From the IMG/VR virus record IMGVR_UViG_3300046674_000521, positions 1 to 33,769 of that record: 33,769 nucleotides of DNA; one strand, given 5' to 3'. Source of the stretch: a virus. A program made the translations under genes and the position numbers. The notes beneath the pieces were generated by a model. The model had not been told where the DNA came from, ran no database searches, and saw nothing but the letters and a program-made list of their open reading frames with translations. The stretch's first letter is position 1; each line of letters opens with the position of its first letter. Shown piece after piece: positions 1,067 through 30,665 of this stretch.

Positions 1067-1371
1067 TGCGTATCCCGATCTGGCCGGGTGTCCGGCTGTC
1101 CATGTGGGAGCCGCAGAACCCGGACGCGGTGAAGGTCACGATGGCCTGTTACTACAAGCCGTTCAGGGTGACGCGGGTGCTGTCGAAGCGGGGCTGGGCT
1201 CTGTTGCTGATCCGGTACGACTGGCGGGACACGGGGACTTACGAGCCGCCGAAGCGTGACGCCCTTGCTGATACTCCGACCCCCGGATGCTCTTGCGGGC
1301 ACGATGGCATGGGCGCAGCGTGGCACGAGCGTGGCGTGTGCCAGTGGCTGGTTGGGGAGGCTGGCCGATGA
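1066..1371 (+). CDS. Small hypothetical protein with Cys-rich C-terminus
   Basis: The product has 101 residues. The start is the ATG at 1066, which overlaps the preceding TGA (TGATG); the same frame is open further upstream, but that part overlaps the previous gene. The first 60 residues look like a small beta-rich fold (WPGVRLSMWEPQNPDAV, RYDWRDTGTYEPP). The last 30 hold CSCGHD, then His and a further Cys, a possible metal site resembling the CSCGWD motif of the upstream protein. No known family recognised. Its stop again overlaps the next start (ATGA). Confidence 0.65.
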   Translation: MRIPIWPGVRLSMWEPQNPDAVKVTMACYYKPFRVTRVLSKRGWALLLIRYDWRDTGTYEPPKRDALADTPTPGCSCGHDGMGAAWHERGVCQWLVGEAGR

Positions 1372-2024
1372 CGCCCCGGAACTCTGCGGCCGCGCAGGCT
1401 GCTGCCATCCGTGCGGGGGCCCGGCGTGGCCCGTGGCGGCGTCTCCTGGTCCTCCTGGGTGTCCGTACCCCGGGGATGCGTAGGGCGGACAGTCGGGCGT
1501 TCCTGTGGGGACACGGTGCGGAAGGCGAGGCGGTCACGGCCCGGATGCTGACCGCGCTCGAGGCCCGCGGGTGGGCGATACGGCACGACGTCCGATTACG
1601 GGGCAGACGGTTCAACGTGGATCACGTCCTGGTGCCCCCGTGCGGGACCGCGGTGGTTGTCCTCGACACGAAGGCGTGGCACCGCGGCCGCACCACCGAC
1701 CTGGTGAACGGCCGGGTCCACTGCGGGACGGAGGACCGGCACACGCAGGTCCAGCGGGTGGCCGAGTACGCGCTGCTCGTCGGCCAGGCCCTGGGACTGC
1801 CAGACGTGGCGGTGTGGCCGCTCCTCGTCGTCCACGGCTCCCCAGTGGCCGGCGGGCAGCTCGAGGCCCGGGTGAACGGCTGGGATGGTCCGGTGTACGT
1901 GCTGGGCCCGGAGATGCTGCTGCCACGCCTGGCGGGTGCGCCAACAGCATGGGATCCGCGGCGGGCGCAGGCAGTGGCGGACCGAGTCGATTCGGTGCTT
2001 CTGCCGTACACGGAGCCCGGCTGA
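1368..2024 (+). CDS. NERD (nuclease-related domain) protein
   Basis: The 218-residue product carries a NERD domain (PF08378), a restriction-endonuclease-like fold related to Holliday-junction resolvases. The pattern is GxxGE at about residues 50-53, a long helix, VRLRGRRFNVDHVLV (residues 75-89, with the catalytic-type Asp of NVDH), then VVVLDTKAW (residues 97-105), the D-x-K pair expected of this fold. A basic segment precedes the domain (residues 20-40). Start chosen at the ATG overlapping the preceding TGA. Leucine 77 is encoded by TTA (1596-1598), the rare bldA-dependent codon of Streptomyces. Pairing with a methyltransferase in one operon recalls modification/nuclease partnerships, but cleavage activity is inference. 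Confidence 0.8.
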   Translation: MTPRNSAAAQAAAIRAGARRGPWRRLLVLLGVRTPGMRRADSRAFLWGHGAEGEAVTARMLTALEARGWAIRHDVRLRGRRFNVDHVLVPPCGTAVVVLDTKAWHRGRTTDLVNGRVHCGTEDRHTQVQRVAEYALLVGQALGLPDVAVWPLLVVHGSPVAGGQLEARVNGWDGPVYVLGPEMLLPRLAGAPTAWDPRRAQAVADRVDSVLLPYTEPG

Positions 2025-2543: not shown

Positions 2544-2894
2544 GTGCCCACGAACGACGCCTACGACTTCCCCCAGGACCTCCTGGACGCCCAGCTCGCC
2601 CTCCATGAGACCCGTGCCGCCTACGAGGAGTACGCCCAGACCCTGCCGTGGTCGGCCGTACCCATGCCGGGGTGGGAGGCGGACAAGCAGCTCCACTCCA
2701 ACTACATCTCAGGGAAGCCGGACAGCCCTGGGTACACGGACGAGCAGGCTGCGGAGGTCGCCCGGTTCCAGGCCCACCTCGTCGAGCTGTCCACCCTCGT
2801 GTCGACGCACCCGTACTGGGCGTCCCTGGGCGAGGGTGTCGTCATGGCGCGGATGGCGTTGAAGCACGCCCACGAGCAGCCGGCCGGGTCGTAG
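2544..2894 (+). CDS. Hypothetical protein paired with DUF6233
   Basis: The product has 116 residues from a GTG start at 2544, chosen because the recognisable protein begins there (PTNDAYDFPQDL) and the upstream frame is out of character. There is no clear ribosome site, so the gene may be read leaderless from a promoter just upstream. The protein is mostly helical with two acidic helices and a conserved-looking HPYWASLGEG segment near residue 90. I recall similar proteins next to DUF6233 genes in Streptomyces but know no function. It ends 2 bases before the next GTG, indicating co-expression. Confidence 0.7.
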   Translation: MPTNDAYDFPQDLLDAQLALHETRAAYEEYAQTLPWSAVPMPGWEADKQLHSNYISGKPDSPGYTDEQAAEVARFQAHLVELSTLVSTHPYWASLGEGVVMARMALKHAHEQPAGS

Positions 2895-2896
2895 CC

Positions 2897-3226
2897 GTGT
2901 CCGACCCATCGCAGATGTCCGACCTGGACAAGAACCGGGCCCTGGTCGAGTGGCTGGAGTGGCAGCTACGCCACGCGAAGAACCGGGTTCGTGAGCTCGA
3001 GGTTGCCGAGGAGCAGGAGCGGCGGCGTAGGGAGCGGGCGCGGGCGGAGATGTCGTGGAAGATCCAGCCGCAGCGGGGTGGGATGCAGGCGATGCTGCAC
3101 CGCGGGGGCTGCACCACGTACAGCGAACAGTTCGGGTTCATCAACCGCGAGGAAGCGTTGATCGCGTTGGGGGAACCGGATATCGAGGCGTGCCCGATCT
3201 GCAACCCGCAGACAGGGCTGACCTGA
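2897..3226 (+). CDS. DUF6233-like protein
   Basis: The product has 109 residues from GTG 2897, 2 bases after the previous stop. The layout matches Streptomyces DUF6233 proteins: an N-terminal helix with LVEWLEWQLRHAKNRVRELE, a charged EEQERRRRERAR coiled coil, then a compact C-terminal domain with LHRGGC (around residues 67-72), INREEALIAL and the closing CPICNP motif that can bind metal. The function of the family is unknown. It is accessory in actinobacterial genomes and mobile elements. Confidence 0.75.
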   Translation: MSDPSQMSDLDKNRALVEWLEWQLRHAKNRVRELEVAEEQERRRRERARAEMSWKIQPQRGGMQAMLHRGGCTTYSEQFGFINREEALIALGEPDIEACPICNPQTGLT

Positions 3227-3272: not shown

Positions 3273-4322
3273 TCAGTCCTGCCAGGTGCCGCGGAGCGCT
3301 GCGGTGATGAACCCGGGCCCGTAGGCGACGGCGACACCGGTGGACCCGTCCGCAGGGGGTGTGGTGTGGGTGCGCTCGAGGATCCGGAGCACGCTGACGC
3401 CGCCGAGGTTGCCTTCGTCGGCGAGGGTGTCCGTGGAGTGCCGGGTGTCGTGGGCGTCGAGACCGAGGGCGGTGGCGGTGTCCGTGATGATGCGGGCGCT
3501 GCCGGGGTGGATGGCCGCGAAGTCGACGATGCGGGGGCCTAGCCAGTGCAGGAGGTGGGGGAGGACGTCGTCGGCGGCGGTGAGGGCTTCCTTCGTGGAG
3601 TCGAAGTGGAAGCCGGTGTGGTCGACGCGGCCGGCGTAGCGGTCGAGGCTGCCGGGGAGGACGTGCTCGTACGTGTCCGCGGGGCTGTCGACGCGGAGGC
3701 CGGGGCCGAGGGGTTGGCTGGTGACGAGGACGGCTGCGGCGGAGTCCCCGAACAGGGCTTTGTAGATCATGTGCTCGACGTCGGTGTCCTGGTGGTTGTA
3801 CACCGCGGAGATTACCTCTGAGGCAACGACGAGGACGGTGGTGTCGGGGCGGGCGGTGACCATGTCGACGGCCCGGATGAGTGCTTGGGTGCCGCCGGCG
3901 CACGCCATGGTGGTCAGGGCGATGCGGGAGACGTCGGGGCGTAGGCCGAGCCGTTGGACGAGGTGGATGTCGAGGTTGGGGACGGACCAGCCGGTGGAGT
4001 GCGTCGTGATGATGGCGTCGACGTCGGTGGATTGCACCTGGTGGGTGGTGAGGGTGTGGCGGGCTGCCTGCTCGGCGAGGTCGAGGGCGTCCGTGAACGC
4101 GGCCTCAGCCCTCTCCCCGATGCCGGCGGCGCCACTGATGGTGGGGGAGTTCAGGGGCCGGGTGAAGTACCGGGTCTGCACTCCGGTGTTGGCGACGACG
4201 CGCAGGAAGTACTTCAGCCGGGGGTGGTTGTAGTGGTGGGTGCGGATGTCGTCGACGATTTCGGCGGTGGTGACCTTGTGGGCGGGTAGCGCGGTGGTGG
4301 GGCGAGCTATGTACGCGGGCAC
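3273..4322 (-). CDS. Type III polyketide synthase (chalcone synthase-like)
   Basis: The 349-residue product is a complete type III polyketide synthase, a homodimeric ketosynthase that extends an acyl-CoA starter with malonyl-type units and cyclises the product. The catalytic triad is intact: Cys141 in TMACAGGTQ, His272 in AIHPGSARI and Asn305 in EGNLGGVSVL. The 33-residue His-Asn spacing equals that of chalcone synthase, and GPGF near the C-terminus is also present. The best start is GTG 4322, preceded by GGAGG at 5-nt spacing; an ATG 93 bases upstream lacks a comparable site and adds unmatched residues. It reads in the same direction as, and downstream of, the XRE regulator. The sequence is closest in my memory to germicidin/alkylpyrone-type bacterial enzymes, but the product cannot be assigned. 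It is very unusual cargo for phage-type DNA. Confidence 0.92.
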   Translation of the reverse strand: MPAYIARPTTALPAHKVTTAEIVDDIRTHHYNHPRLKYFLRVVANTGVQTRYFTRPLNSPTISGAAGIGERAEAAFTDALDLAEQAARHTLTTHQVQSTDVDAIITTHSTGWSVPNLDIHLVQRLGLRPDVSRIALTTMACAGGTQALIRAVDMVTARPDTTVLVVASEVISAVYNHQDTDVEHMIYKALFGDSAAAVLVTSQPLGPGLRVDSPADTYEHVLPGSLDRYAGRVDHTGFHFDSTKEALTAADDVLPHLLHWLGPRIVDFAAIHPGSARIITDTATALGLDAHDTRHSTDTLADEGNLGGVSVLRILERTHTTPPADGSTGVAVAYGPGFITAALRGTWQD

Positions 4323-4402
4323 GGCATCCTCCGGCGGGCAGAGTCCATCGGTGTGGGGGTGGCCTAAACCTATGGCACCGGCGGACGGGTATTGCCCCTG
4401 CT

Positions 4403-4463
4403 CAACGCATTGCAAGGAACAGAACGGGTGGTCGGTTCTCGGCCGGTTCTTTGCAATGCGTTG
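4403..4463 (-). promoter_or_regulatory. 18-bp inverted repeat, candidate operator upstream of the polyketide synthase
   Basis: CAACGCATTGCAAGGAAC (4403-4420) is repeated in inverted orientation as GTTCTTTGCAATGCGTTG (4446-4463), 17 of 18 positions matching, with a 25-bp spacer. It lies in the 151-bp gap between the regulator stop and the synthase GTG. It has no U-tract and so fits an operator for the neighbouring XRE protein better than a terminator. A minus-strand promoter could overlap it (TTGCAA followed at suitable distance by an AT-containing hexamer). The core is echoed at 5358-5370. Confidence 0.6.
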
Positions 4464-4473
4464 ACTTTGCAGG

Positions 4474-5298
4474 TCAGTAGGCGCGGAGCATGTGAGTCCG
4501 GATATGGGCGCGTCGCGACCCGGGATGAAATACCAACACGATCAGCCGGGCCCCGGGGGCGGTCATGGGTTCCGCGGCGCACATCGTGACCCACCCCGGG
4601 CCGTCGATCGCATGGAGGAGGGGGCGTTCGTCGCCGTCGGGATGAATGTGCGCACCACTGTTGGCTTCCCAGAGCGGGGCGCACTCCGGGTCGGCCAAAA
4701 CTTCCTTCTCCAGGGTCTGGAGGATGTCGTCGTCGGGCCGTGCGGCCAGGGCTGCCCGCAACTGAGGCAGGACCAGCGGCGCCCAGGCGGTCGCCCAGTC
4801 GGTCAGGGTGTTCCGCCCGTCTTCGTCGAGGAGCATCCACCGCATCGTGTTCGTGGGGACGCGGCGGCCGGGGAACAGGCGGGCGAACGGGGCGTTGTAC
4901 GCGATCAGTTCCCACGATGCGTCCGTCACGTAGGCCATGTGCCGCATTCCGTCGACGGCCTCCTGCCATACGCCGGGGATCTCTTTCCCGGAGCGGGGGG
5001 TGAGGGGGCCGGGCGGGTTACCTATCCCGGCGTACCGGCACAGTGACACCCACTCCTGCTCGTTCAGCGCGAAGAGCATCGCCACGTCGCGGAGCAGGTC
5101 GGCCGGCGGGTTCGGGTAGGACCCGGACTCGAGCCTGCGGTACGTCCCGAGGGTTCGGTGGCACAGCTGGTCGACTTGGTACTGGGTGAGCCCGGGGGCG
5201 CGCCGCCCTTGCCCGGTCGGGCGTTCGAACCCGTGCTCGTTGGGTTCGACGAGGTTACGGCGTTCCCTGAGGAGATCCCGTAGCGCCTTTTTGTTCAT
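4474..5298 (-). CDS. XRE-family regulator with MmyB-like ligand-binding domain
   Basis: The product has 274 residues. Residues 1-90 form a Cro/C1-type helix-turn-helix domain (LTQYQVDQLCHRTLGTYRRLESGSYPNPP region). Residues about 105-274 match the MmyB-type ligand-binding domain (PF17765), with the typical WELIAYNAPFARLFPG and late LVFHPGS segments. In Streptomyces such proteins usually control an adjacent, often divergent, metabolic gene and are thought to sense fatty-acid-like ligands. Here the adjacent target is plausibly the type III polyketide synthase downstream on the same strand. The ATG is preceded by GGGGGA. Operator-like sequences occur on both sides of the gene (see 4403-4463 and 5358-5370). 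Confidence 0.88.
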   Translation of the reverse strand: MNKKALRDLLRERRNLVEPNEHGFERPTGQGRRAPGLTQYQVDQLCHRTLGTYRRLESGSYPNPPADLLRDVAMLFALNEQEWVSLCRYAGIGNPPGPLTPRSGKEIPGVWQEAVDGMRHMAYVTDASWELIAYNAPFARLFPGRRVPTNTMRWMLLDEDGRNTLTDWATAWAPLVLPQLRAALAARPDDDILQTLEKEVLADPECAPLWEANSGAHIHPDGDERPLLHAIDGPGWVTMCAAEPMTAPGARLIVLVFHPGSRRAHIRTHMLRAY

Positions 5299-5329: not shown

Positions 5330-5395
5330 GCGCACCACGAACCCTATTTATGTGCATGGTTCTTGGCGATAAAAACCGGCAGTAGAAAACCAACA
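5330..5395 (-). promoter_or_regulatory. Candidate promoter and operator half-site of the XRE regulator
   Basis: Read on the minus strand this AT-richer stretch holds TTTATC and, 17 bases later, TAAATA, a plausible -35/-10 pair for the regulator gene. The spacer contains GCCAAGAACC. The plus-strand form GGTTCTTGGCGAT (5358-5370) matches GGTTCTTTGCAAT of the inverted repeat at 4445-4457 at 11 of 13 positions, suggesting autoregulation. A second possible -10 (TATACA) lies closer to the gene. Confidence 0.4.
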
Positions 5396-5398
5396 CTG

Positions 5399-5837
5399 GA
5401 CCCGTCATGCTCTCTGGTGTGGGGCACTGGCCTGCGGTCCTTGCGGACCGTGAACACAGTGCTACATGCGCAGGATTCTTGACTAGACCGCTTCCTGAAA
5501 AGGACCGGTTTGCCTTCAGGGCAAGGAATCCTGCAGCCCGCCGGAACAGTGGCGGGAAGGAACGGAGGCGTCTCGTATTCCGTCTTTCAGGGGCGGAGCT
5601 TCGCAGCACGAGCGTCCTCTGCACTTCCCCGCTGGTTGTTCCTGGGGCCGCCGACTGTGGTCGGTGCCGTCACTCGCCATTCGTCGCGGCCACGGCACCG
5701 GCTACACCCATGTGTTCACGATGCATCAGATGCCCGTGGTTCCATCCAGGCGAAGCACGTTCGTGCACACATGCCGCCCCTTTGGGCTGGATCCCGATTC
5801 CACCGCGTGGATTGCCGCGCACCCTGATAAGGGTCGG
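5399..5837. other. Gene-poor stretch with nested inverted repeats; possible IS200/IS605-type right-end remnant
   Basis: No open frame here has convincing coding character. Visible structures are: CGGTCC/GGACCG hairpin (5435-5450); GCAGGATTCTTG (5470-5481) facing CAAGGAATCCTGC (5522-5534); inside it CCTGAA/TTCAGG (5494-5520) and a TTGCC-TTCAG-GGCAA hairpin (5510-5524); and CCCGCC/GGCGGG (5538-5554). On the minus strand the TTCAG-loop hairpin, GGAATCC and a GTCAAG motif resemble the right ends of IS200/IS605 elements that follow tnpB genes in Streptomyces. A 60-codon minus-strand frame (5516-5698) could be the tail of such a gene. No tnpA or catalytic tnpB segment is present. Alternatively this is a structured RNA or simply spacer. 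A Cys-rich plus-strand frame from 5710 was not called because it runs into the convergent gene. Confidence 0.3.
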
Positions 5838-6392
5838 CTACCGGAATTCCGTTGCCTCGGGCAACTCAGCCCGGTCGAGGGCGGCGCGCAGGGCGCTCAC
5901 AACGGCTGGTGTTCGGATTACGTCGGGGAGCTGCTTCTCCCAGTGGTCGGCCATTTGTCGCACGCGGGCGAGGACAGCCTCGGCAGCGCGGGCGCGCTTC
6001 TCCTCTGCGGTGCGCGCTGCCCGCTCGCTCTCCCGGTCGGCGAGGACGGCGTCCAGGCGCCGGGAGTTGAGCCGCAGGGCTTCAGCGACACTGCAGGCCT
6101 TTTGCTGCACGCGGTTCAGCTCGGCCCGCAGCTCCTCCAGCTCCCGGTCACGCACGGCGCTCTGGTTGTGGGCCAGCCATGCGGCCGACCGCTCGCTGGC
6201 GGCGGCTGCCTGGGCGGCGCGTTCCTCCGCCTTCCGCTCCATCTCCGGGTCGACCGGGGCGGCGTGGAGCCGGTTCGCGTGCTTGATCGATTCCCACGCG
6301 CTTTGGATCACGGCCCGGCATTCGGTGGTGCAGTCCATCGTGCAGGCGTCGTTCAGGCACTCCGGGGGTGTCGGTGTCGGCTGGTCGGTCAC
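5838..6392 (-). CDS. Coiled-coil hypothetical protein
   Basis: The product has 184 residues from GTG 6392, chosen for the strong GGAGG-ACGAA-GTG site; the open frame extends 35 codons upstream but that part overlaps the preceding small gene. Near the N-terminus are four Cys in CLNDACTMDCTTEC. Residues about 45-150 are an almost continuous charged, Ala-rich coiled coil (KAEERAAQAAAASER, LEELRAELNRVQQ, ERAARTAEEKRARAAEA). Coiled-coil proteins with a Cys-rich head of this kind recur in actinophage accessory operons. Function unknown. It is the last gene of the long coupled minus-strand operon. Confidence 0.7.
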   Translation of the reverse strand: MTDQPTPTPPECLNDACTMDCTTECRAVIQSAWESIKHANRLHAAPVDPEMERKAEERAAQAAAASERSAAWLAHNQSAVRDRELEELRAELNRVQQKACSVAEALRLNSRRLDAVLADRESERAARTAEEKRARAAEAVLARVRQMADHWEKQLPDVIRTPAVVSALRAALDRAELPEATEFR

Positions 6393-6553
6393 TTCGTCCT
6401 CCGTGCTGCTGCTCGCCGGGCGGCCCGGTTGGCCTGGGGTGTGGGTGCGTTGTCGGGGATGACCGTCTCGCCGGTGGTGCGGAGGACGGTGCCCCACTGG
6501 GATCCGGGGCGGCCGGCACGCTCACCCCGAGGGGTGCTGGACGGGGTACTCAT
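6389..6553 (-). CDS. Small basic hypothetical protein (54 residues)
   Basis: This short frame is supported by tight coupling at both ends: its ATG at 6553 overlaps the upstream TGA (TGATG), and its TGA overlaps the GTG of the downstream gene (GTGA). The product begins MSTPSSTPRGERAGRPGSQW and ends in an Arg/Ala-rich tail (NRAARRAAARRTK), so it is small and basic, possibly nucleic-acid binding. No family is recognised. Without it there would be an unexplained 160-base hole in an otherwise gap-free operon. Confidence 0.6.
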   Translation of the reverse strand: MSTPSSTPRGERAGRPGSQWGTVLRTTGETVIPDNAPTPQANRAARRAAARRTK

Positions 6554-6957
6554 CAGAACCTCCACCACCCGTCGTAGCCGTCGGGCAGGGCCGGGTAGTT
6601 GGCCAGCATCGGCCGCAGGAGTTCCAGGTGCTCAGCGATCGTGTCGGGCTTCTGCGCGCCCCAGTAGTTCTCGCCGTCCCAGCGACCTTCGCAGTCGCCG
6701 CCGTACCGGCCGTCCAGGTCCGCCGATAGAACGGCGTGGGGGTCGTCGACGTCCAGACGGTCCGGCAGGTAGTGGCTCCACAGCTTCAGCGTTCCGAGGC
6801 ACGCCCGGGTGACGCCGGCCTGTCGGCGGAACCAGACGGCGTTGATCGAACCGCTGAAGGCGATGAGATCACCGCGCGCGTGTTGGTCGCCGCTCAGGGT
6901 GGCCAGGTCGACGGCGAAGCCCTTGCGGGAGATCAGGAAGCGGTCGTCTCGGATCAT
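6553..6957 (-). CDS. Hypothetical phage accessory protein
   Basis: The product has 134 residues. Start at ATG 6957, which overlaps the upstream stop (CGATGA) and has GAGGAGG 7 bases before it; the frame is open upstream but lies inside the neighbouring gene. The sequence is rich in Asp, Trp and Tyr (RLDVDDPHAVL, RYGGDCEGRWDGENYWG, GYDGWWRF at the end), typical of small globular phage proteins. No known domain is recognised. Expressed as part of the twelve-gene operon. Confidence 0.7.
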   Translation of the reverse strand: MIRDDRFLISRKGFAVDLATLSGDQHARGDLIAFSGSINAVWFRRQAGVTRACLGTLKLWSHYLPDRLDVDDPHAVLSADLDGRYGGDCEGRWDGENYWGAQKPDTIAEHLELLRPMLANYPALPDGYDGWWRF

Positions 6958-7340: not shown

Positions 7341-7690
7341 CGGGTGGCCTCTTCGGTGGCGGCGGCGTGTCGGTCGAGTGCGTCAGCAGCGCGGCGGATG
7401 TGCAAGTCGAGGTCGGGCCCCGGGTACTCGACGCGCAGCCAGTCAGCGGCTTTGCGGATCGCTGCTGCTTCGAACGTGGCTTGCGCGGCGCGAAGCCGCT
7501 CGCCGTAGTCCCGTTGGCCAGCCTCACGCTGCTGGAGTGGCAGGTACTGGCCGGTGGCACGGTCTGTCAGCGGGGCGTAGGTGTAGTGGCCGAACGCGCC
7601 AAGCTGGTACAGCTGGTACAGCTGGTATTGCGCGGCGTAGTACGCCTTGTCGGTTTCGGTGAGTTCGGGATCGGCGTCAAGGTCGCTCAT
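7337..7690 (-). CDS. Hypothetical protein with YQLYQLYQL repeat
   Basis: The 117-residue, largely helical product carries a short internal repeat (YQLYQLYQL, near residues 22-30), visible in DNA as tandem agctggtac units around 7610-7635. The second half (LRAAQATFEAAAIRKAADWLRVEYPGPDLDLHIRRAADALDRHAA) predicts an amphipathic helix pair. No known domain. Start ATG 7690 overlaps the upstream stop, preceded by GAGGAGACGACCCG. It ends in EEATR as do neighbours. Confidence 0.75.
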   Translation of the reverse strand: MSDLDADPELTETDKAYYAAQYQLYQLYQLGAFGHYTYAPLTDRATGQYLPLQQREAGQRDYGERLRAAQATFEAAAIRKAADWLRVEYPGPDLDLHIRRAADALDRHAAATEEATR

Positions 7691-8004
7691 CGGGTCGTCT
7701 CCTCGGTTGCGGTGGCCTGCTGGGCGATGTCGGCCACCCAGTCGGGCCAGGTGTCGACGGGCCCTTCGAAGTGCTGGCCGAGGGGGTGGTCGGTGGGGGT
7801 GTCGGGGTCTTTGCGCCGGTGCCCGTCTACGTAGGCGGTGACGGCGGCCTGGCGGGGGTGGTCATCGGTGCGCCATTTGATCTCGACGCGGGCGGGGGTG
7901 ATGAAACCCGGGCCGTACTGGTTGGGCAGGTCGGGTGCGCCAGCGACGACGAACGTCGTGGAGCGGACTATGGCGGTCGCGGCGACAGCGGTGGGCGCGC
8001 TCAT
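7687..8004 (-). CDS. Hypothetical protein, paralogue A of a duplicated pair
   Basis: The 105-residue product is about 86 percent identical, without gaps, to the one encoded at 8614-8931 (15 differences by eye). Conserved blocks are LPN-YGPGFITPARVEI, WRTD-HPR and RKDPDTPTDHPLGQHFEGPVDTWPDW. It is a small, soluble, beta-rich protein with no family known to me. The pair lies 927 bp apart within the same operon, so the duplication included at least one coupling junction. The end, EETTR, is again encoded by the ribosome site of the next gene. Confidence 0.75.
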   Translation of the reverse strand: MSAPTAVAATAIVRSTTFVVAGAPDLPNQYGPGFITPARVEIKWRTDDHPRQAAVTAYVDGHRRKDPDTPTDHPLGQHFEGPVDTWPDWVADIAQQATATEETTR

Positions 8005-8225
8005 CGAGTCGTCTCCTCAGGGATGAAGTTTCGGACCTCGAAGCCGAGCCACTGAACGACCTCGTCGCGGTTCAGTTCGCCGCCATGCAGGTTCCCCTTG
8101 GGGTCGGCGCGCACGGCATCGATGACCGCCTCGCGAAGGGCTGCAGGTGGGGGTTCGGCGGTTGACCAGTCGATCGGGTACCCGGCGCGGACGAGCCACG
8201 CTGCAGCATCGCGGAGGTCGCTCAT
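8001..8225 (-). CDS. Small helical hypothetical protein
   Basis: The product has 74 residues. Start at ATG 8225 (MSDLRDAAAWLVRAGYPIDWS), overlapping the stop of the ASCH gene; the frame is open upstream but within that gene. The sequence alternates short helices (LREAVIDAVRADP, NRDEVVQWLGFEVRNF) and looks like a compact helical domain. No family recognised. Ends in EETTR through the shared junction. Confidence 0.65.
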   Translation of the reverse strand: MSDLRDAAAWLVRAGYPIDWSTAEPPPAALREAVIDAVRADPKGNLHGGELNRDEVVQWLGFEVRNFIPEETTR

Positions 8226-8617
8226 CGAGCAACCGCCAGCTGCTCGTTGACGGCGGCCAGGACATCCCCGGGCGGGTTCCAAAAGCCGAGGGCACCCTTG
8301 CATGGCACCGGTGTCACCAGGGCGGTCACGTCGTCGAGTTGCCAGTGGTAGACGTCGGGGAATCCCCAGGGTCCGCAGCAGGTGCCGTCCATGTGGGCGG
8401 CGTGGCATCCGGTGAGGGTGGCGATGCCGATGATTGCGCCGTAGTCGCCGAAATGCGGTCCGTAGATCTCGGCGTTCTTGTCGAGCTGGGTTCCGGCGTG
8501 GATGAGGATGCGGGCGCCGTGCTGCTTGGCGGGCAGCTTCCAGGTGCGGTTTTCGACGCGCTTCGTCTGGTGGACAATCGCGCCAGCCCAGGGCTGGCGA
8601 ACGGTCAGGGCCTTCAT
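8222..8617 (-). CDS. ASCH-domain protein
   Basis: The 131-residue product begins with the hallmark ASCH-domain segment MKALTVRQPWAGAIVHQTKRVENRTW, followed by ARILIHAGTQLD and GAIIGIATLTGCH. ASCH domains adopt a PUA-like fold that binds RNA or modified nucleosides, and some members hydrolyse N4-acetylcytidine. They are common in phages. Cys residues at CH and TCCG could add a metal site. Length is typical for a stand-alone ASCH protein. Its end (LAVAR) is the only product of the nine CGATGA junctions that lacks an acidic residue just before the last few residues, and the ribosome site for the next gene is correspondingly weaker. Confidence 0.88.
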   Translation of the reverse strand: MKALTVRQPWAGAIVHQTKRVENRTWKLPAKQHGARILIHAGTQLDKNAEIYGPHFGDYGAIIGIATLTGCHAAHMDGTCCGPWGFPDVYHWQLDDVTALVTPVPCKGALGFWNPPGDVLAAVNEQLAVAR

Positions 8618-8931
8618 CGGGTCGCCTCCTCGGTTGCGGTGGCCTGCTGGGCGATGCCGGCCAGCCAGTCCGGCCAGGTGTCGACGGGCCCTTCGAAGTG
8701 CTGCCCGAGGGGGTGGTCGGTGGGGGTGTCGGGGTCTTTGCGCCAGTGCCCGTCTACGTAGGCGGCAACGTTGGCGCGGCGGGGGTGGTTGTCGGTGCGC
8801 CAGGTGATTTCGACGCGGGCGGGGGTGATGAAGCCGGGGCCGTACGGGTTGGGGAGGTCGGGGACGCCTGCGACAACGAACTTCGTGGAGCGTTCTATGG
8901 CGGTCGCAGCGACAACGGTGGGGGCGGTCAT
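8614..8931 (-). CDS. Hypothetical protein, paralogue B of a duplicated pair
   Basis: The 105-residue product, from ATG 8931, is the same length as and about 86 percent identical to the product of 7687-8004. The C-terminal halves are nearly identical in DNA as well (8640-8770 against 7710-7845), which points to recent duplication or gene conversion. It lies between the ASCH gene and a zinc-site protein. No function known. Confidence 0.75.
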   Translation of the reverse strand: MTAPTVVAATAIERSTKFVVAGVPDLPNPYGPGFITPARVEITWRTDNHPRRANVAAYVDGHWRKDPDTPTDHPLGQHFEGPVDTWPDWLAGIAQQATATEEATR

Positions 8932-9248
8932 CGGGGCACCTCGCTCAGCAGGGACTCCCAGCACTCGTCTTCGTCTGCCTGCTCGGACGCTTCGAACCGC
9001 TCGAGGGTGCAGCCGTCCTCGGTGCACGGCCAGGGAGTGACGGGCCGGCCGACCAGATCACCCATCTCGGCGGCCTCAGGGTCCTTCTCAACGATCCGCA
9101 GGCCGTGCGGGCAGTACACGCCCCACGCCTCGTCGGCTAGCTTGGCGCGGGTCTCGCAGTCCGGGAACGGGCAGTTCTCGATCAGGCCTTTGTGCTGGGA
9201 CGGGAAACCCATCTGGTCGGGGCCGTCGTGCGTGATGTTGATGGTCAT
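8928..9248 (-). CDS. Hypothetical protein with Cys/His metal-site candidates
   Basis: The 106-residue product starts MTINITHDGPDQMGFPSQHK at ATG 9248. Cys residues fall in CPFPDC, YCPHG and PCTEDGC, a spacing compatible with a zinc-binding fold. The C-terminus is acidic (EASEQADEDECWESLLSE). The start overlaps the upstream stop and has GAGGAGCCGACCCG as ribosome site. No family recognised. Confidence 0.7.
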   Translation of the reverse strand: MTINITHDGPDQMGFPSQHKGLIENCPFPDCETRAKLADEAWGVYCPHGLRIVEKDPEAAEMGDLVGRPVTPWPCTEDGCTLERFEASEQADEDECWESLLSEVPR

Positions 9249-13847: not shown

Positions 13848-14402
13848 TCAGGAAGGCCGAGAGGGCTGCCCGGCCACCCAGAAGCCGCTGGTTCGCTGAT
13901 CAAGCACGCGTTCTGAATAGAGATCCTCCAGAGCCGACCTGACCATCGCTATGGAGACTCCATACAAGTCGGCCAGAGCACGTACTGCTGGGAGCCGCTC
14001 CCCCGGCTGGTACTCGCCAGCGTGTAGTGACTTCCTCAGGCGATCGGCAACATCGGCGACCCCTTGCTTCAGCTCTGGGGCGTCCCTCCTGGCGGGCCGT
14101 TCACGCATGCCACCAAATCGGTGGGTGTCTCCGAAGCGAGGCTTCTCCGACCGCTCAATCGCCTCCTCGGCTGCGAGGGCTTCAACACGGCTGCCGACCC
14201 ACTCGACCTCCTTTCGAGCGACCAGGTGCCACCACAGCTTCTGCAGCGCGTGTTCCTCCCATCGCCGCTCGGGGGCCATTGAGATCCCGACGTACAACAG
14301 GCGCTCCTCGGCGTCGTAGAGCCGGTAGATCGCTGTCCTGCCCGCCATTGCGGCGTTGTACGAAGACTTGGTGCTGAAGTTGATCGTTCGTCGGCTTGTC
14401 AC
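13848..14402 (-). CDS. GIY-YIG nuclease domain fused to a GntR-type winged helix
   Basis: The product has 184 residues from GTG 14402 (GAGAGGA about 9 bases upstream); ATG 14348 is the alternative, without a visible ribosome site. Residues about 24-100 form a GIY-YIG endonuclease-like domain: AIYRLYDAEERLLYVG (the two motif strands), RRW for the catalytic Arg region and EEAIERSEKPRFG for the Glu region. Residues about 115-180 are a GntR-type winged helix (LHAGEYQPGERLPAVRALADLYGVSIAMVRSAL). The architecture suggests a DNA-targeted nuclease or a repressor with a GIY-YIG sensor. It may help control replication or transfer of the element. Activity is not proven. Confidence 0.85.
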   Translation of the reverse strand: MTSRRTINFSTKSSYNAAMAGRTAIYRLYDAEERLLYVGISMAPERRWEEHALQKLWWHLVARKEVEWVGSRVEALAAEEAIERSEKPRFGDTHRFGGMRERPARRDAPELKQGVADVADRLRKSLHAGEYQPGERLPAVRALADLYGVSIAMVRSALEDLYSERVLDQRTSGFWVAGQPSRPS

Positions 14403-14475
14403 GGACTGGCGTCCTCTCAGTGATGAGGCAGAGGGGCGCCGGGCCGACCACGAGAGGGCCGGCCCGGCCAGGGAG

Positions 14476-15483
14476 TCAGACGGAGATGCTCTGCTTGGCT
14501 GCCTGGTCAGCGCACGTCCTGCAGAGGCGGCCACCAGGAAGAGCCGGACGACCGCACAGGCCGTCGTTGCCGTTGCACTCGAGTTGCTGACGCTGGGCTT
14601 CCGCGGCCGGCAGGCTCGCCAAGCTGTCTGGCGTCCATGTCAAGGCCTCCGAGTCGCCGCTCTCAGCCTGACGGGGAAGCGCCGGAGCTGATGACGGAGG
14701 AGGCGCAGCAATAGCGGCGCGCAACCTTCCGGCCACGATCGCCCCGACAGTCGTCTTCACCGGGTCCGGAAGAGGCCGGCCAGCAATTACCTGGTGCAAC
14801 TGCGGTTCGGTCCAGCCCTCCAGCAGCATCCCCGTGACCGTCAGACCCTGATCGGTGAGCGTCTTGCCGGTCAGCAGGAACTTGGGGTTCTCCGCTCCGA
14901 TTGCAAGCAGCAGGTCAACTCCTGGGCTACAACTCGACCTCTCGCTGCCGTCCTTCCCTCCCGACCCGCAGCTCGACGAGCCCGCAGGAAAGGAAGGACG
15001 GTTCGTATTCTCTTCGCTGGTCTTCTTAGAGCTGGTCTTCTTAGGCATGCGATCAGCCGCTTGCGGATCAACCGCGTGCGGAAAATCGCTAACCGGTTCC
15101 GAGCTGGGAGTTTCCATGTCTTCGCAGGTCATGTCCGGTTGCAGATTTTCGCCCACCGGCTCTGAGCTGGGCATATCTGTGATGCTGTAGCTCATCTGGC
15201 CCATGGTCCCGTCATCGTTGCGGTCCTGCCTACGGACGAGGTAGCCGTACGACTCGAGCTCGCGGAGGCCCGTCCTGACCGAGGCCAGCCCGTCTGTGCT
15301 GGCATTTGCGATCCACTTCGGGGTGACGCCGTAGCCGTTTCGGTGCGTGCTGATCAGACCGAAGATGCCCTTGGCCTTGAAGGACAGACGCACATCACGG
15401 AACAGGCGGTTGTGGATCTGGGTGAAGTCTCGCTGGAGGACATCGGCAGCCATGGGGCCGCGATCGATGCGGCCATGGGTCAT
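14476..15483 (-). CDS. Winged-helix replisome-organizer/replication-initiator-like protein
   Basis: The product has 335 residues from ATG 15483 with GGGGGTGA upstream. The N-terminal 105 residues form a winged helix of the type found in plasmid Rep and phage replisome-organizer proteins (FTQIHNRLFRDVRLSFKAKGIFGLIS, then VRTGLRELESYGYLVRRQDRN). A long Ser/Lys-rich linker with repeated SSEPV motifs follows (105-185). Then comes a helical segment with LLEGWTEPQLHQVIAGRPLPDPVK and a C-terminal four-Cys zinc site (CNGNDGLCGRP...CRTC). It is the best candidate for replication control in the window. No relaxase, primase or helicase motif is seen, so a true initiator role is uncertain. Confidence 0.7.
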   Translation of the reverse strand: MTHGRIDRGPMAADVLQRDFTQIHNRLFRDVRLSFKAKGIFGLISTHRNGYGVTPKWIANASTDGLASVRTGLRELESYGYLVRRQDRNDDGTMGQMSYSITDMPSSEPVGENLQPDMTCEDMETPSSEPVSDFPHAVDPQAADRMPKKTSSKKTSEENTNRPSFPAGSSSCGSGGKDGSERSSCSPGVDLLLAIGAENPKFLLTGKTLTDQGLTVTGMLLEGWTEPQLHQVIAGRPLPDPVKTTVGAIVAGRLRAAIAAPPPSSAPALPRQAESGDSEALTWTPDSLASLPAAEAQRQQLECNGNDGLCGRPALPGGRLCRTCADQAAKQSISV

Positions 15484-16208: not shown

Positions 16209-16769
16209 TCACGCTCGGGAGCCGGCCACGAGGGCGTACTGCTGATTCATCCAATGCAACCGTTCGGGACCCCTCGTCACCTTGCCCAGGTCGGTTAGCT
16301 CGGCCAGGCCCGCTCGCATGGACGTGTAGTCGAAGCCGATGTGGTCAGCAGTTCCGCCAAGCGAGAACCAGACCCCGGCGTAATACCTGCGCAGCTCCTT
16401 CAGCATCAACCGAGCCCGGATCGACATGTCCGGCTCTGGCGTCGGTGCAGCTTCCTCGATCGTTGGCGTACAGGCAGCTACCGCTTCGAGCAGCCCGTCG
16501 TCGAGGGCAGCCTGGATCAGAGGCAGCGGGTCTGAGCTGAACTCGAACCACTCGCCGTGTGATCGCTGCTCGGCAAAGTGCCGGTGCAGCGCCCGCTCAA
16601 GGGCATATGGCGAAGGAACGGCCCAGAGCACCTCAATCTTCACCGGACTCATCCGCTGAATCTGGCTGCACCGCGCTTCGAGGTCAGTCGTCATCCCGAT
16701 CTTCACAGTGAAGCTTCCCGGCTCACCCATTACGTACAGGTACGTGGGCTTGTTGATGCGCTGGTTCAC
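16209..16769 (-). CDS. MUG113/T5orf172 (GIY-YIG-like) domain with C-terminal winged helix
   Basis: The product has 186 residues from GTG 16769 (GAGAGGA 8 bases upstream), 19 bases after the GntR gene stop, so probably co-transcribed. Residues 9-85 match the MUG113/T5orf172 branch of the GIY-YIG superfamily: YLYVMGEPGSFTVKIGMTTD (the two core strands), then EARCSQIQRMSP, ERALHRHF and GEWFEF, which carry the conserved Arg, Glu, His and Trp-Phe. After an acidic Pro-rich linker, residues about 115-180 look like a winged helix (LMLKELRRYYAG...MRAGLAELTDLGKVTRG). It is the second nuclease-plus-wHTH fusion within 3 kb. Confidence 0.85.
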   Translation of the reverse strand: MNQRINKPTYLYVMGEPGSFTVKIGMTTDLEARCSQIQRMSPVKIEVLWAVPSPYALERALHRHFAEQRSHGEWFEFSSDPLPLIQAALDDGLLEAVAACTPTIEEAAPTPEPDMSIRARLMLKELRRYYAGVWFSLGGTADHIGFDYTSMRAGLAELTDLGKVTRGPERLHWMNQQYALVAGSRA

Positions 16770-16788: not shown

Positions 16789-17523
16789 TCACTGGGTGTC
16801 CACCTGCCACAGGCCCGGCGCGTAGACGTCCTCCCAGACCTCGAGAGGGCCGTCCTCGTCCGAGAACGTGTTCACGAGCACCAGGACTGGCACGGGAGTC
16901 CCCGGCTCGACGTCGACTCCGAGGGCTTCCAGTTCGTAGTCGTATGCGAGCCGCGCGCTCCTGCGCTCCGGCGACTTGGTGACTGTCCGTCCGGTGCGTG
17001 CTGTGTAGATCTCCTGCCAGAACCGGTCGAACGGCTCTGGGCTGAGCAATTCGGGCACATCGTCGAGGGCGCGGACGTGGATGCATGAGACAGCGAACAC
17101 GGTGCGCTTGCCGTCCCGGACGAAGGTGCGCGTCCGTAGGACCACCTCCTCGTGGAGCTCGACATTGAGCTGGTCGGCGAGGATCGGGTCGACGAGGGAT
17201 CGCAGCTGTGCTGTGTGGTCCACCGAGATCTCCTTCTTCGCGTAGGGCTTCCCGGTTCGCGCAATCCGATCGAGGCGGGCGGACGCTGTTGCCGCCACTC
17301 GCGGCTGATCCACAACGACGGTGCCGACCCCGGGCTTCGGCATGGTCAGACCTTCCGACTTGAGCAGCCGAAACGCGCGGTTAGCCGTGGTGATGGAGAC
17401 GCCGAACTCCTTGCACACGTCCGTCATGGAGGGCATTTGTGTGCCAGGGGCGAGCGTGCCATCGGTGATCAGCTTCCGGTAGTGGCTGGCGATTTCCGCG
17501 TAGCCGGGCTTTTTGTCGCTCAT
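16789..17523 (-). CDS. GntR-family repressor with UTRA domain (KorSA-like)
   Basis: The product has 244 residues from ATG 17523 (AAGG 5 bases upstream); GTG 17529 is the only close alternative. Residues 1-75 are a GntR winged helix (YAEIASHYRKLITDGTLAPGTQMPSMTDVCKEFGVSITTANRAFRLL). Residues about 90-244 fit a UTRA effector-binding domain. Such GntR proteins (KorSA of pSAM2, for example) repress transfer and replication genes of actinomycete conjugative elements and their own gene. It is divergent from the transfer operon, with duplicated operator-like sequences between them, which supports this role. Confidence 0.85.
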   Translation of the reverse strand: MSDKKPGYAEIASHYRKLITDGTLAPGTQMPSMTDVCKEFGVSITTANRAFRLLKSEGLTMPKPGVGTVVVDQPRVAATASARLDRIARTGKPYAKKEISVDHTAQLRSLVDPILADQLNVELHEEVVLRTRTFVRDGKRTVFAVSCIHVRALDDVPELLSPEPFDRFWQEIYTARTGRTVTKSPERRSARLAYDYELEALGVDVEPGTPVPVLVLVNTFSDEDGPLEVWEDVYAPGLWQVDTQ

Positions 17524-17540
17524 CTTCACCTTCTCTCTAA

Positions 17541-19386: not shown

Positions 19387-19532
19387 TGAGCAGACACCAG
19401 ATGCGCAGCCGCCTCGGCGGCTACGCGTTCGCCGCCCTCACCCTCCTCGCCATCTACGCCGACATGACCGGCCCCGCACTCATCTGCGCAGGGCTCACCG
19501 CACTCACCTGGAAAGGAAACCGAAAGCGATGA
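19386..19532 (+). CDS. 48-residue single-span membrane protein
   Basis: A short frame coupled at both ends (TGATG at 19384-19388, ATGA at 19529-19532). The product has a basic start (MSRHQMRSRLGG), one or two hydrophobic stretches (YAFAALTLLAIYADM and PALICAGLTALTW) and a basic tail (KGNRKR). Small membrane proteins of this kind are typical of the spread (spd) genes of Streptomyces plasmids, which extend plasmid transfer along the mycelium. The spd link is by analogy of position and topology only. Confidence 0.6.
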   Translation: MSRHQMRSRLGGYAFAALTLLAIYADMTGPALICAGLTALTWKGNRKR

Positions 19533-20410
19533 CCAGCACCCCGGCTACCCCCTCGGCGAACCACATTGCACGCGTGCTCGCCTGGGCGTGCCAGGCGGCC
19601 GTCGCCTCCATGTACCTCGTCGTCATCGGCACCCCGGCCGCGTGGCGTCCGGTAGTTGCCGCTGACAAGGTCGGCGCCGCCTGCCTGGGGCTGTTCGTGA
19701 TGTGCATGGCGTTCCTCTGGGGAACCAGCCTTTGGTCCGAGCAGAAGCACTTCTACAACCGCAGCAGGCGCGGCATTCACCAGAGCGCCGCCATCGCCGG
19801 CCACCTCGGCCTGTTCTTCATCGCGATGGTCGCCGCGACGGAGCAGCCGAACCCGATCGCCATGTGGGTCATCATGCCGATTTTCTCCGCCCTTGCGATC
19901 GTCGTCTGGATCAGCTGGATGCAGAGCCTGGCCCTTCCCCCTGAGGACCAGGCCGTCATCGACGCCATTCACGCTCAGCAAGCCCAGGCAGCAGTGGCCC
20001 TCTTCGACGCCAGCGAGAAGGAACGCCGCCACGCACGGCTCGGCGCGATCGTCGCCAGCCTCGGCTACGAACTGACCGACACGCCTGCTGTCGCCCCGAA
20101 GGAGGAGGCACCCCTGCAGACGTGGGTGGTCCCCTCCCGCAAGCACAGCCCGCTCGTCTACTTCATCCGCAACGGCAACCGACTCAAGATCGGCACGAGC
20201 ACGGAGCTGAAGCGGAGGGTCCGAACCCTCGCCCTCCGCGCCGAGAACGTCGTTCTCCTGGTCAACGGAGGACAGGACATCGAGCGCGCCTTCCACCGCC
20301 AGTTCTCCGACCTCCGCATCGGCAACACCGAGTGGTTCGCCTACGAAGGCGCCCTCGTCGACTACGTCACCACCGAGAACCACCGCATCCGACAGGAGCA
20401 GGCCAAGTGA
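19529..20410 (+). CDS. Four-span membrane protein with C-terminal GIY-YIG-like (T5orf172/MUG113) domain
   Basis: The 293-residue product has four hydrophobic helices (about 15-37, 48-68, 84-104, 112-133), a helical linker (135-200) and residues 210-285 with a GIY-YIG-superfamily core: VYFIRNGNRLKIGTS, then LKRRVRTL, DIERAFHRQFSDLRI and GNTEWF. The conserved Lys-Ile-Gly, Arg, Glu, His and Trp-Phe positions match those in the 16209-16769 protein. The four-helix half resembles DUF2637/SpdB-like membrane proteins of actinomycete elements. A nuclease-like domain on the cytoplasmic face of a membrane anchor could process or recognise transferring DNA; this is inference. Confidence 0.8.
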   Translation: MTSTPATPSANHIARVLAWACQAAVASMYLVVIGTPAAWRPVVAADKVGAACLGLFVMCMAFLWGTSLWSEQKHFYNRSRRGIHQSAAIAGHLGLFFIAMVAATEQPNPIAMWVIMPIFSALAIVVWISWMQSLALPPEDQAVIDAIHAQQAQAAVALFDASEKERRHARLGAIVASLGYELTDTPAVAPKEEAPLQTWVVPSRKHSPLVYFIRNGNRLKIGTSTELKRRVRTLALRAENVVLLVNGGQDIERAFHRQFSDLRIGNTEWFAYEGALVDYVTTENHRIRQEQAK

Positions 20411-28510: not shown

Positions 28511-29035
28511 ATGCCAGCCTCCAGAGCAAAACAAGCCGACACCGCCCAGCGACGCACCGAGATGCTGCGCATGAAGATCAGCGGCAAGTCGGTCACGCAG
28601 ATCGCCGAACACTTCGGCATGACGCGCGCCACCGCGTCCAAGGACCTCAGCCGCATCGTCCGCAAAGCCCGCGAACTCGAGATCCAGGAAGCCGAGCTCT
28701 ACCGCGAAGTGCAGCGCGGACGCCTCGAAACGCTCCTGCTCGGCGTCTGGCCCGACGCGGTCACCGGCGAACCGAAGGCATCAGAGACTGCCCGAAAGCT
28801 GATCTCCGACCTGTCCGACCTCCTCGGCGTCAAGGTACCCGTCCGCACCGAAATCTCCGGCCCCGAAGGCGGCGACATCCCCTTCAGCAGTGGCGACCTG
28901 ACCGAGCTCCGCACCCTCATCGCCATCTCTGACCAGCCGGGCGCCGAAGTACCCGACTTCGGTCACGACGACGAAGACGAGGAAGAGGACAGCGAAGGCG
29001 ACCAGCCAGACGACGATGACGACGACGACCAGTAG
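28511..29035 (+). CDS. Terminase small subunit-like protein
   Basis: The product has 174 residues from ATG 28511; the only upstream ribosome site is a rather distant GGGAG. Residues 12-60 hold a helix-turn-helix (MLRMKISGKSVTQIAEHFGMTRATASKDLSRI) for binding the packaging site. A coiled coil (60-110) follows for oligomerisation, and the tail is strongly acidic (EDEEEDSEGDQPDDDDDDD). The gene overlaps the large subunit gene by 20 bases in another frame. Position and architecture are those of phage small terminases, though sequence similarity in this family is low. Confidence 0.8.
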   Translation: MPASRAKQADTAQRRTEMLRMKISGKSVTQIAEHFGMTRATASKDLSRIVRKARELEIQEAELYREVQRGRLETLLLGVWPDAVTGEPKASETARKLISDLSDLLGVKVPVRTEISGPEGGDIPFSSGDLTELRTLIAISDQPGAEVPDFGHDDEDEEEDSEGDQPDDDDDDDQ

Positions 29036-30593
29036 GCGGCACCAGGAGTTCCTCGACGAGTACCGTTCCCTTCCTGCCGAGCAGCGCTACCTCGTTGCCG
29101 CCCGCGCCACCCCGGACCAGCGGCGCAAGCTCATGGCGATCGAGCGGAACATGGCCATGGACCGGTCCCCCGGAGCCATGGCGTCAGTCCTCACCGAGGG
29201 CCGCGAACTTCAAGCACCGCACCTGAATCTGATCGACCAGGCGTTCCAGCGCATCGCGGCCGGAGAGAAGCTGCAGGTCATGCTGACGATGCCGCCACGC
29301 CACGGGAAGTCTCAGAGGGCCTCGCGCTGGGGGCCCCTCTGGTATCTGCGGCGTCACCCCGAGCACCGCGTCATGATCGCCTCTTACGGTGCCGACCTTG
29401 CTGAAGGCCACGGACGGTGGGTGCGAGACCAGCTTCGCGAGTACCCCACAGCGCTCGGCATCCGCCTGCACTCCGGATCCCACGCCGCGAACCGGTTCGA
29501 CCTTGAGCAGCGCCGGGGATCATCCGTCACCGGCGGCATGGTCACCGCAGGCGTCGGAGGCGGTTTGACCGGAAAAGGCTTCAATTTGGGCATTATCGAC
29601 GACCCGTTCAAAGGCAACGACGACTCCGGAAGCCCCGCGCAGCGCGACCGCGTCTACGACTGGTACCGCTCCGTCTTCTACACCCGGCGTGCCCCCGGCG
29701 CCTCAATCCTGCTGATCAATACGCGTTGGCATGAAGACGACCTCTCCGGCCGGCTCCTCGCCCACGAACCCGAACGATGGATCCAGATCGACCTGCCCGC
29801 CATCGCCGACAACGCCAACGACGCCCTCGGACGCACCCTCGGACAGGCCCTCTGGCCCAGCCAGTACGACGAAACCGACCTCGCCGACACACGCCAGACC
29901 CTCGGCGAACGCATCTGGTACGCCATGTACCAGCAAAAGCCCCGCCCCCTCGAAGGCGGCGTCTGGAAATGGGCATGGATCACCGGGCACCGCGTGGACC
30001 CCAAAGCGTGGCCCGGCATCACACCTACCCGTGTCGTCGTCGCCGTCGACACCGCCGGTGGCGACACCGTCCGACGCGACTCCGCCGGCAACGACGAAGT
30101 CGGGCTCGTCTGCGCCGCCCGCGACGCAGAAGGCCACCTCTACGTCCTCGACGACCGCTCACGCAACATGGGCGCCGAGACATGGGGCACCGAGGTCTGC
30201 CAGCTTGCGATTGACCGGCAGGCTGACGCCATCGTCATCGAGAAGAACTTCGGCGGCGACATGGCCGCACAGATCGTCCGCCAGGCCTGGAGCGAACTCG
30301 AACGGGACGGCGGCACGAACCGGATGCTGATGCCCGCCATCATCGAAGTCCACGCCAAGCAGGGGAAGCGCCTGCGCGCCGAACCGATCGCCCAGCTCTA
30401 CAAGCAGGGCCTCGTCCACCACGTCGGAGAGCACACCGAACTCGAGGGGCAGCTCGTCACCTGGATCCCCGGTATGGACTCACCGGACCGCATGGACGCT
30501 GCCGTGCACGGCCTCACCGAGCTCGCCAACCCGGCTGCCGCATCCGTGGGCAGCGGTTCGTACAGCGACCACCGCCTGTCCGGGCGTCGTTGA
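29016..30593 (+). CDS. terL: Phage terminase large subunit
   Basis: The 525-residue product is the packaging motor: an ATPase that drives DNA into the capsid and a nuclease that cuts it. ATPase part: Walker A-like PPRHGKS (93-99) and Walker B-like GIIDDP (192-197). Nuclease part: VVVAVDTAGGD with Asp345, VIEKNFGGD with Glu409, and the late DRMDAAVHGLTEL motif with a further Asp, which form the RNase H-like metal site. Length is normal for the family and no key residue is missing. The gene starts within the small subunit gene (20-base overlap), suggesting translational coupling. Confidence 0.95.
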   Translation: MTTTTSRRHQEFLDEYRSLPAEQRYLVAARATPDQRRKLMAIERNMAMDRSPGAMASVLTEGRELQAPHLNLIDQAFQRIAAGEKLQVMLTMPPRHGKSQRASRWGPLWYLRRHPEHRVMIASYGADLAEGHGRWVRDQLREYPTALGIRLHSGSHAANRFDLEQRRGSSVTGGMVTAGVGGGLTGKGFNLGIIDDPFKGNDDSGSPAQRDRVYDWYRSVFYTRRAPGASILLINTRWHEDDLSGRLLAHEPERWIQIDLPAIADNANDALGRTLGQALWPSQYDETDLADTRQTLGERIWYAMYQQKPRPLEGGVWKWAWITGHRVDPKAWPGITPTRVVVAVDTAGGDTVRRDSAGNDEVGLVCAARDAEGHLYVLDDRSRNMGAETWGTEVCQLAIDRQADAIVIEKNFGGDMAAQIVRQAWSELERDGGTNRMLMPAIIEVHAKQGKRLRAEPIAQLYKQGLVHHVGEHTELEGQLVTWIPGMDSPDRMDAAVHGLTELANPAAASVGSGSYSDHRLSGRR

Positions 30594-30649: not shown

Positions 30650-30665
30650 GTACAGAGGAGTTCTG

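Follow-up and report, generated by a model that had tools for sequence, protein, structure and literature searches.

Violapyrone loci and their relatives

The two-gene pair described here is of an already known kind, the vioA/vioB locus, and lies on a known type of element. In the published accounts of vioA and vioB, which span 2016 to 2018 (PMC4924298, PMC5898002), a type III polyketide synthase (PKS) gene, vioA, and an XRE regulator gene, vioB, are reported on a circular plasmid of about 85 kb in Streptomyces somaliensis SCSIO ZH66 (PMC4924298). VioA is reported to make violapyrones, which are 3-methyl-4-hydroxy-6-alkyl-α-pyrones, and deletion of vioB is reported to increase violapyrone B eightfold, VioB acting as a repressor; VioA and VioB are also given there as 95% identical to proteins of plasmids pCQ3 and pCQ4 (PMC4924298). 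According to the later paper, VioA clusters with Gcs-type enzymes, its residue S242 is essential, and 21 further genomes carry vioAB loci, mostly plasmid borne (PMC5898002). The literature searched, in which the vio papers were represented by part of their text, did not identify the violapyrone plasmid as a phage-plasmid.

Type III PKS genes in plasmid prophages have been noticed before (PMC4487206, PMC10023795). Plasmid pSLE1 of S. leeuwenhoekii, a ZL12-like circular plasmid, carries a type III PKS gene and an mmyB gene, and no product is reported in PMC4487206. Among regulators of the MmyB/MltR family, MltR holds a fatty acid (myristic acid) in its pocket, MmyB answers furan signals, and MmyB relatives respond to alkylated signal molecules (PMC3406030). 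The methylenomycin MmyB is an activator, whereas VioB is reported to be a repressor.

The window analyzed here is a linear DNA of 33,769 nucleotides (33.8 kb) that makes up an entire IMG/VR virus record (IMGVR_UViG_3300046674_000521). A first-pass annotation of its letters had proposed that a synthase gene and an adjacent MmyB-type regulator gene at positions 3273 to 5298 are mobile-element cargo through which the host could gain a small polyketide. We add that ZL12-type phage-plasmids commonly carry the pair as an exchangeable cassette, usually accompanied by an undescribed conserved RNA structure.

A Gcs/VioA-like synthase

The synthase gene (3273 to 4322, minus strand) encodes a VioA/Gcs-like type III PKS of 349 amino acids, recognized by its Pfam domains, invariant triad and AF2 fold. 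The open reading frame as listed begins at a TTG at 4415; the true start is most likely the GTG at 4322, which is preferred because GGAGG lies immediately 5′ of it and because homologues are annotated with equal length. Counted from that GTG, the triad is C141, H272 and N305, exactly as numbered in the first-pass annotation of a full-length synthase, and all three residues are unchanged across 24 aligned homologues. S242, the residue essential in VioA, is invariant in the PKS alignment, which includes the window copy. Pfam scored Chal_sti_synt_N at 80.5 bits (E = 1.6e-22; cut-off, 27) and Chal_sti_synt_C at 26.1 bits, just below its cut-off of 27. The AF2 model (pLDDT, 93.4) found its best PDB fold match in germicidin synthase, Gcs (SCO7221; 3v7i; E = 2.9e-37). 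Gcs, the product of a chromosomal gene, is the closest solved structure by both profile and fold and falls in a common clade with the window PKS, although the two are only about 30% identical. The features of a type III PKS are present, namely a Cys-His-Asn triad and a predicted thiolase fold with N- and C-terminal CHS domains. Both the PKS and the mmyB reading frames have coding-type GC3, and neither protein found a match in the defense-system libraries searched.

The first-pass annotation had allowed for both alkylpyrones and a naphthol redox pigment. An RppA-type THN synthase, leading to a naphthol/flaviolin pigment, would agree with a single-sequence search, in which THNS (1u0m) came out on top at 158 bits versus 145 for Gcs, and with the ZL12 record, which annotates similarity to RppA. 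A profile search, however, ranked Gcs first, and the synthase phylogeny that the annotation had proposed as a check placed the cassette with Gcs, itself a long branch, at a support of 100/99 against THNS, PKS11 and PKS18. Moreover, the relative VioA is reported to yield α-pyrones (PMC5898002), and no P450 partner gene was seen around the pair. We consider a THN synthase very improbable. Since the enzyme falls with Gcs and VioA in this family, an alkyl-α-pyrone is to be expected as its product; that part of the earlier proposal stands, and the naphthol pigment does not.

A VioB-like regulator in a probable separate transcription unit

The adjacent gene (4474 to 5298, minus strand) encodes a VioB-like, MmyB-type XRE regulator of 274 amino acids, assigned by the Pfam MLTR_LBD domain, AF2 fold and adjacency to the PKS gene. 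The MmyB-like ligand-binding domain MLTR_LBD scored 63.6 bits against a cut-off of 26.3, which bears out the family named in the first-pass annotation, and HTH_31 scored 25.2 bits, slightly below its cut-off of 27. The best fold match of the AF2 model (pLDDT, 89.6) was MltR (3pxp; E = 4.5e-10), at a TM score of only 0.44. The regulator has in common with MmyB/MltR (3pxp, PMC3406030) an XRE helix-turn-helix and a PAS-like ligand domain, the combination that defines the family, at about 20% identity.

The pair compares closely with vioAB. A VioA-like PKS gene adjoins a VioB-like XRE regulator gene on a Streptomyces element, in the same order and with proteins of 349 and 274 amino acids versus the 350 and 272 reported for VioA and VioB, and the S242 reported for VioA is kept. 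The window PKS is 71% identical to the pCQ3 protein and the window MmyB is 65% identical to the pCQ4 protein; both plasmids are of the ZL12 type by terminase. One difference is that the window copy has a predicted structured RNA in divergent orientation to mmyB, while none was recognized in pCQ4, the nearest analyzed relative of vioAB. By analogy with VioB, the regulator is a probable repressor of the window PKS.

Between mmyB and the PKS gene lies a hairpin (4403 to 4463, minus strand) formed by a 13-bp perfect inverted repeat, CAACGCATTGCAA/TTGCAATGCGTTG. The repeat was considered as a shared operator and rejected, as it is present in the closest copies only; other hairpins take its place in more distant relatives, which suggests that it is probably a terminator. 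A candidate PKS promoter (4367 to 4398, minus strand), consisting of a GGGGCAAT block and a −10-like TAGGTT, recurs in phage-plasmid copies. As the intergenic region contains both this hairpin and a −10-like box, mmyB and the PKS gene appear to be separate transcription units.

The pair is cargo of ZL12-type phage-plasmids

The phage identity of the contig is given by genes for terminase large subunit, portal and scaffold (29016 to 33364, plus strand; PHROGs). These head and packaging genes are related to those of the ZL12 type, and the nearest named relative of the contig is the plasmid-phage ZL12. The window terminase shares 67% identity with its ZL12 counterpart and 54 to 87% with those of 34 plasmids, mostly of 85 to 95 kb. 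A replication-initiation-like protein is encoded at 14476 to 15483, and no ParA/ParB partition genes were identified among the scanned open reading frames of this linear fragment. Since the contig is a fragment in which no partition genes were identified, assignment of the element to a phage-plasmid state rests on its relatives.

The pair sits between a minus-strand series of small open reading frames and two convergent genes, one for a DUF6233 protein (2648 to 3226, plus strand; Pfam), which marks the cargo slot and is also present in relatives, and one for a NERD-domain protein (1287 to 2024, plus strand; Pfam), a conserved neighbor in relatives. The order of small open reading frames, mmyB, PKS gene, convergent DUF6233 gene and NERD gene is constant in ZL12-type plasmids, and its recurrence in the window places the pair inside the element. 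In a relative, pSAM1, the equivalent DUF6233/NERD junction contains neither the pair nor the RNA. The constant slot and its empty counterpart indicate that the pair is cargo, as had been proposed, and contrary to the possibility that positions 3273 to 5298 are chromosomal sequence outside the element.

Phage ZL12/pZL12 (GQ919031) has the same adjacent pair, pZL12.99-pZL12.100, at about 74 to 75% identity each; its surrounding gene content is partly unlike that of the window, which is a 33.8-kb fragment. The pSLE1 PKS is 59% identical to the window copy, and the RNA is also present in pSLE1 (L011). The 34 ZL12-type plasmids were picked by terminase alone, and 25 of them carried the pair, with PKS identities of 50 to 84% and mmyB adjoining the PKS gene in 25 of 25. 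The remaining nine had no PKS among the best 40 matches and no close MmyB. The survey of phages and plasmids that the first-pass annotation had called for thus found ready homologues, and the view of the pair as unusual gene content does not hold: the pair is not rare, and its kind had been noticed earlier.

Variants were seen among the relatives. Three plasmids of 88 to 102 kb (L016, L021 and L023) have the cassette in the usual slot and were absent from the best 60 terminase matches, which suggests that their head genes were swapped. Two other plasmids (L026 and L027) have a larger form of the cassette, consisting of a divergent fabG, mmyB, an MBL-fold hydrolase gene and the PKS gene. Close MmyB homologues (63 to 65%; at about 6001 to 6837) occur on two large Streptomyces plasmids without a PKS gene (L014 and L015), where a sigma factor and ParA/ParB are among the genes downstream and where the RNA was not recognized. 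In ZL12-type plasmids, several terminase genes (records H50, H57, H71 to H73 and H76) are split by inserts of about 1 kb, some annotated as HNH endonucleases, that are probably intervening elements, and a LAGLIDADG homing endonuclease is present in H65.

Exchange between phage-plasmids and chromosomes

The first-pass annotation had taken frequent occurrence of the pair at a conserved chromosomal locus to speak against cargo, and chromosomal copies do occur. A search of a genome collection gave 80 PKS loci; some 60 lay in Streptomyces contigs that lacked ZL12-like flanks, and in most of these contigs mmyB was immediately upstream of the PKS gene. At E ≤ 1e-100, the PKS was found in 23 of 247 Streptomyces genomes, each a species; a close MmyB was present in 18 of 20 PKS-positive genomes tested and adjacent to the PKS in nearly all. 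Several chromosomal clades have their own conserved neighbors, for example a Gfo/Idh/MocA oxidoreductase gene upstream and GNAT and acyl-CoA dehydrogenase genes downstream, as clustered with a GC3-based gene call (a version using all open reading frames gave antisense noise).

A tree of 98 PKS proteins required at least five switches between phage-plasmid and chromosome, although it was built by a quick method with midpoint rooting, such that the direction of transfer is not proved. Phage copies formed several clades, and two chromosomal clades were nested among those of phage-plasmids. Across 26 elements, PKS identity followed MmyB identity (rho = 0.93) and did not follow terminase identity (rho = −0.26, not significant), nor did MmyB follow terminase. 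We conclude that the pair has been exchanged as a unit, and given repeated exchange, chromosomal occurrence does not remove the pair from the element. The ratio dN/dS was below 1 for both genes and, in the clade of the window, was 0.33 to 0.44 for the PKS gene versus 0.12 to 0.19 for mmyB, and thus the enzyme may be under relaxed selection or in the course of a shift in specificity.

These results bear on whether an ordinary chromosomal secondary-metabolism pair was acquired by chance by this one phage, as a passenger without function for the element. The chromosomal copies, mostly with adjacent mmyB and with clade-conserved neighbors, are what such an origin would leave behind. That account was already weakened by the same slot being occupied in most ZL12-type plasmids and by the dN/dS values, and it fits poorly with several phage clades that have chromosomal clades nested among them; we regard it as quite unlikely.

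A candidate conserved structured RNA divergent from mmyB

The first-pass annotation was right that the pair is real and guessed its meaning well. It overlooked a feature adjoining mmyB. The 540-base stretch separating mmyB from the next gene appears empty, yet its sequence is conserved across phage as well as chromosomal copies. The window copy of this stretch alone matched more than 40 other loci, every time just 5′ of mmyB, including chromosomes down to an E of 7e-16. A covariance model, covariation, a strand test and folding scores support a candidate structured RNA at about 5363 to 5717 on the plus strand; the left boundary of the model was fixed by where the alignment begins, such that 5363 need not be the RNA 5′ end. 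The idea that the conserved block derives from a protein-coding gene was rejected, as most gaps inside it have lengths not divisible by 3.

Across 27 aligned copies, 97.2% of cells in the consensus structure were paired, changes on both sides of a pair occurred in 44 cells versus 12 in shuffles, and sliding the partners lowered pairing to 37 to 56%. The distal part is a long hairpin (5657 to 5710, plus strand), with a 12-bp outer stem and a conserved, asymmetric internal loop, that lies 385 to 427 nucleotides before mmyB in most copies, usually 408 to 414. In 35 more diverse sequences, 99.1% of hairpin cells were paired and seven pairs had changed on both sides; in 12 of 34 sequences a G-C pair was exchanged for C-G.

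Imperfect pairs were G-U in 112 cells when read on the window plus strand versus 10 if the other strand was read, a count to be weighed with the structure having first been chosen by folding the plus strand, which favors G-U pairs. For the distal hairpin alone the counts were 30 versus 3, and these are less exposed to that bias because the stem is evident on both strands. The G-U bias suggests an RNA of opposite sense to mmyB. An RNA on the mmyB strand, as in the first fold, was rejected, as it would require C-A intermediates and the opposite strand fits better. In single folds, the window copy had a z-score of −4.74 relative to shuffles on the plus strand, and the other strand was 3.5 standard deviations below its shuffles.

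The covariance model scored the window copy at 255 bits and recognized the RNA in 21 of 25 phage-plasmid cassette copies, the exceptions being pCQ4 (L019), L013, L018 and L024. Of 20 PKS-positive genomes, 14 also had the RNA, which adjoined mmyB in every case, and 16 chosen PKS-negative genomes gave one weak partial match only (E = 3.5e-4). Because the RNA is missing or unrecognizable in pCQ4 and the three other exceptions, the basic two-gene function does not require it. Rfam gave no match at its gathering threshold and, with E ≤ 1, only a chance-level match (E = 0.57). When viral contigs were scanned for an exact hairpin pattern, no match was obtained, the pattern being strict and the result uninformative. 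By these comparisons the predicted RNA is a previously undescribed, usual companion of the pair.

The same conservation could arise if the block were regulatory DNA with several inverted-repeat operators and no RNA, as it adjoins the mmyB promoter, contains palindromes and folds better than shuffles on both strands. Operators, however, should be strand-symmetric, whereas the G-U pairs fall on one strand; the 12-bp stems, the conservation of their asymmetric loop and the exchange of G-C for C-G also speak against this reading. We judge operator DNA alone unlikely. We lean toward an undescribed noncoding RNA of about 300 to 350 nucleotides within the cassette that is encoded divergently from mmyB, moves with enzyme and sensor among phage-plasmids and chromosomes, and controls the module.

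An imperfect palindrome, TTTTTATCGCCAAGAA (5360 to 5375), lies in the shared divergent promoter region and is a candidate operator for the regulator; a perfect palindrome, TTTTTAGCGCTAAAAA, occupies the corresponding site in two relatives. Alignment of upstream regions also suggests a −10-like box of mmyB, TAGGGT (5341 to 5346, minus strand), kept as a TAG(A/G)CT type in relatives. With this palindrome in a common promoter region, regulator and RNA may be controlled together.

A model for the cassette

We consider it likely that the window carries a vioA/vioB-type cassette as cargo of a ZL12-type Streptomyces phage-plasmid, in which the PKS makes alkyl-α-pyrones, MmyB represses, and an RNA is encoded divergently. 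The PKS would probably take β-ketoacyl or acyl starters out of fatty-acid metabolism, extend them by (methyl)malonyl units and close the chains into violapyrone-like 4-hydroxy-6-alkyl-α-pyrones, which the lysogen would release. MmyB/VioB would probably repress the PKS promoter until an amphipathic ligand, of the kind suggested by MltR and MmyB, fills the PAS-like pocket; candidates are a fatty acid, a signal or the pyrone itself. Alternatively, the PKS could be released as expression of MmyB itself drops during development. The RNA, if transcribed from the promoter region common to both, would most likely tune mmyB expression or be co-regulated with it.

Product class and repression have been shown by others in relatives, and the earlier proposal that the element gives its host a small polyketide holds experimentally for vioA/vioB as reported (PMC4924298, PMC5898002) and, by analogy, would hold for the window copy. 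Thus, a host of this virus probably gains the capacity to produce a bioactive small molecule, from which phage or host might benefit. The pyrone might instead serve the phage-plasmid as its own small-molecule switch, binding MmyB and coupling lysogen density or development to the choice between plasmid and lytic states, without benefit to the host. Joint inheritance of enzyme and sensor, the alkylated signals answered by MmyB relatives and the fatty acid in the MltR pocket (PMC3406030) would suit such a switch. It accords less well with the nine ZL12-type plasmids that lack the pair, with the pair and RNA on chromosomes without phage genes, and with a candidate operator that has no second occurrence within the window, and we hold it to be rather improbable.

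With the cassette taken as a source of pyrones for the host, a characterized antibiotic-type locus, that of the violapyrones, is linked to a Streptomyces phage-plasmid family that passes it on as a unit, which offers a case in which lysogenic conversion via secondary metabolism can be tested. The three parts, RNA, sensor and enzyme, make the regulation of minimal pathways directly testable, and the RNA offers a sequence handle for finding more such cassettes.

Other genes of the window

Elsewhere in the window, an open reading frame at 13848 to 14534 (minus strand) encodes an unusual fusion, in which a GntR-type winged helix comes after a GIY-YIG nuclease domain, and adjoins the replication-initiation-like gene; it is possibly a targeted nuclease or a misjoined reading frame. 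T5orf172/MUG113 (GIY-YIG-like) domain proteins are encoded at 16209 to 16769 (minus strand), with a weak match to candidate defense family PDC-S57, and at 19529 to 20410 (plus strand). Two closely similar small proteins, at 7687 to 8004 and 8614 to 9027 (minus strand), represent an apparent duplication within an accessory operon and are separated by an ASCH-domain protein (8222 to 8617). Finally, an FtsK/SpoIIIE-like gene (25202 to 27484, plus strand; weak PHROG match) and a GntR/UTRA regulator gene (16789 to 17529, minus strand) recall the Streptomyces TraB/KorSA conjugation genes, though on a phage contig.
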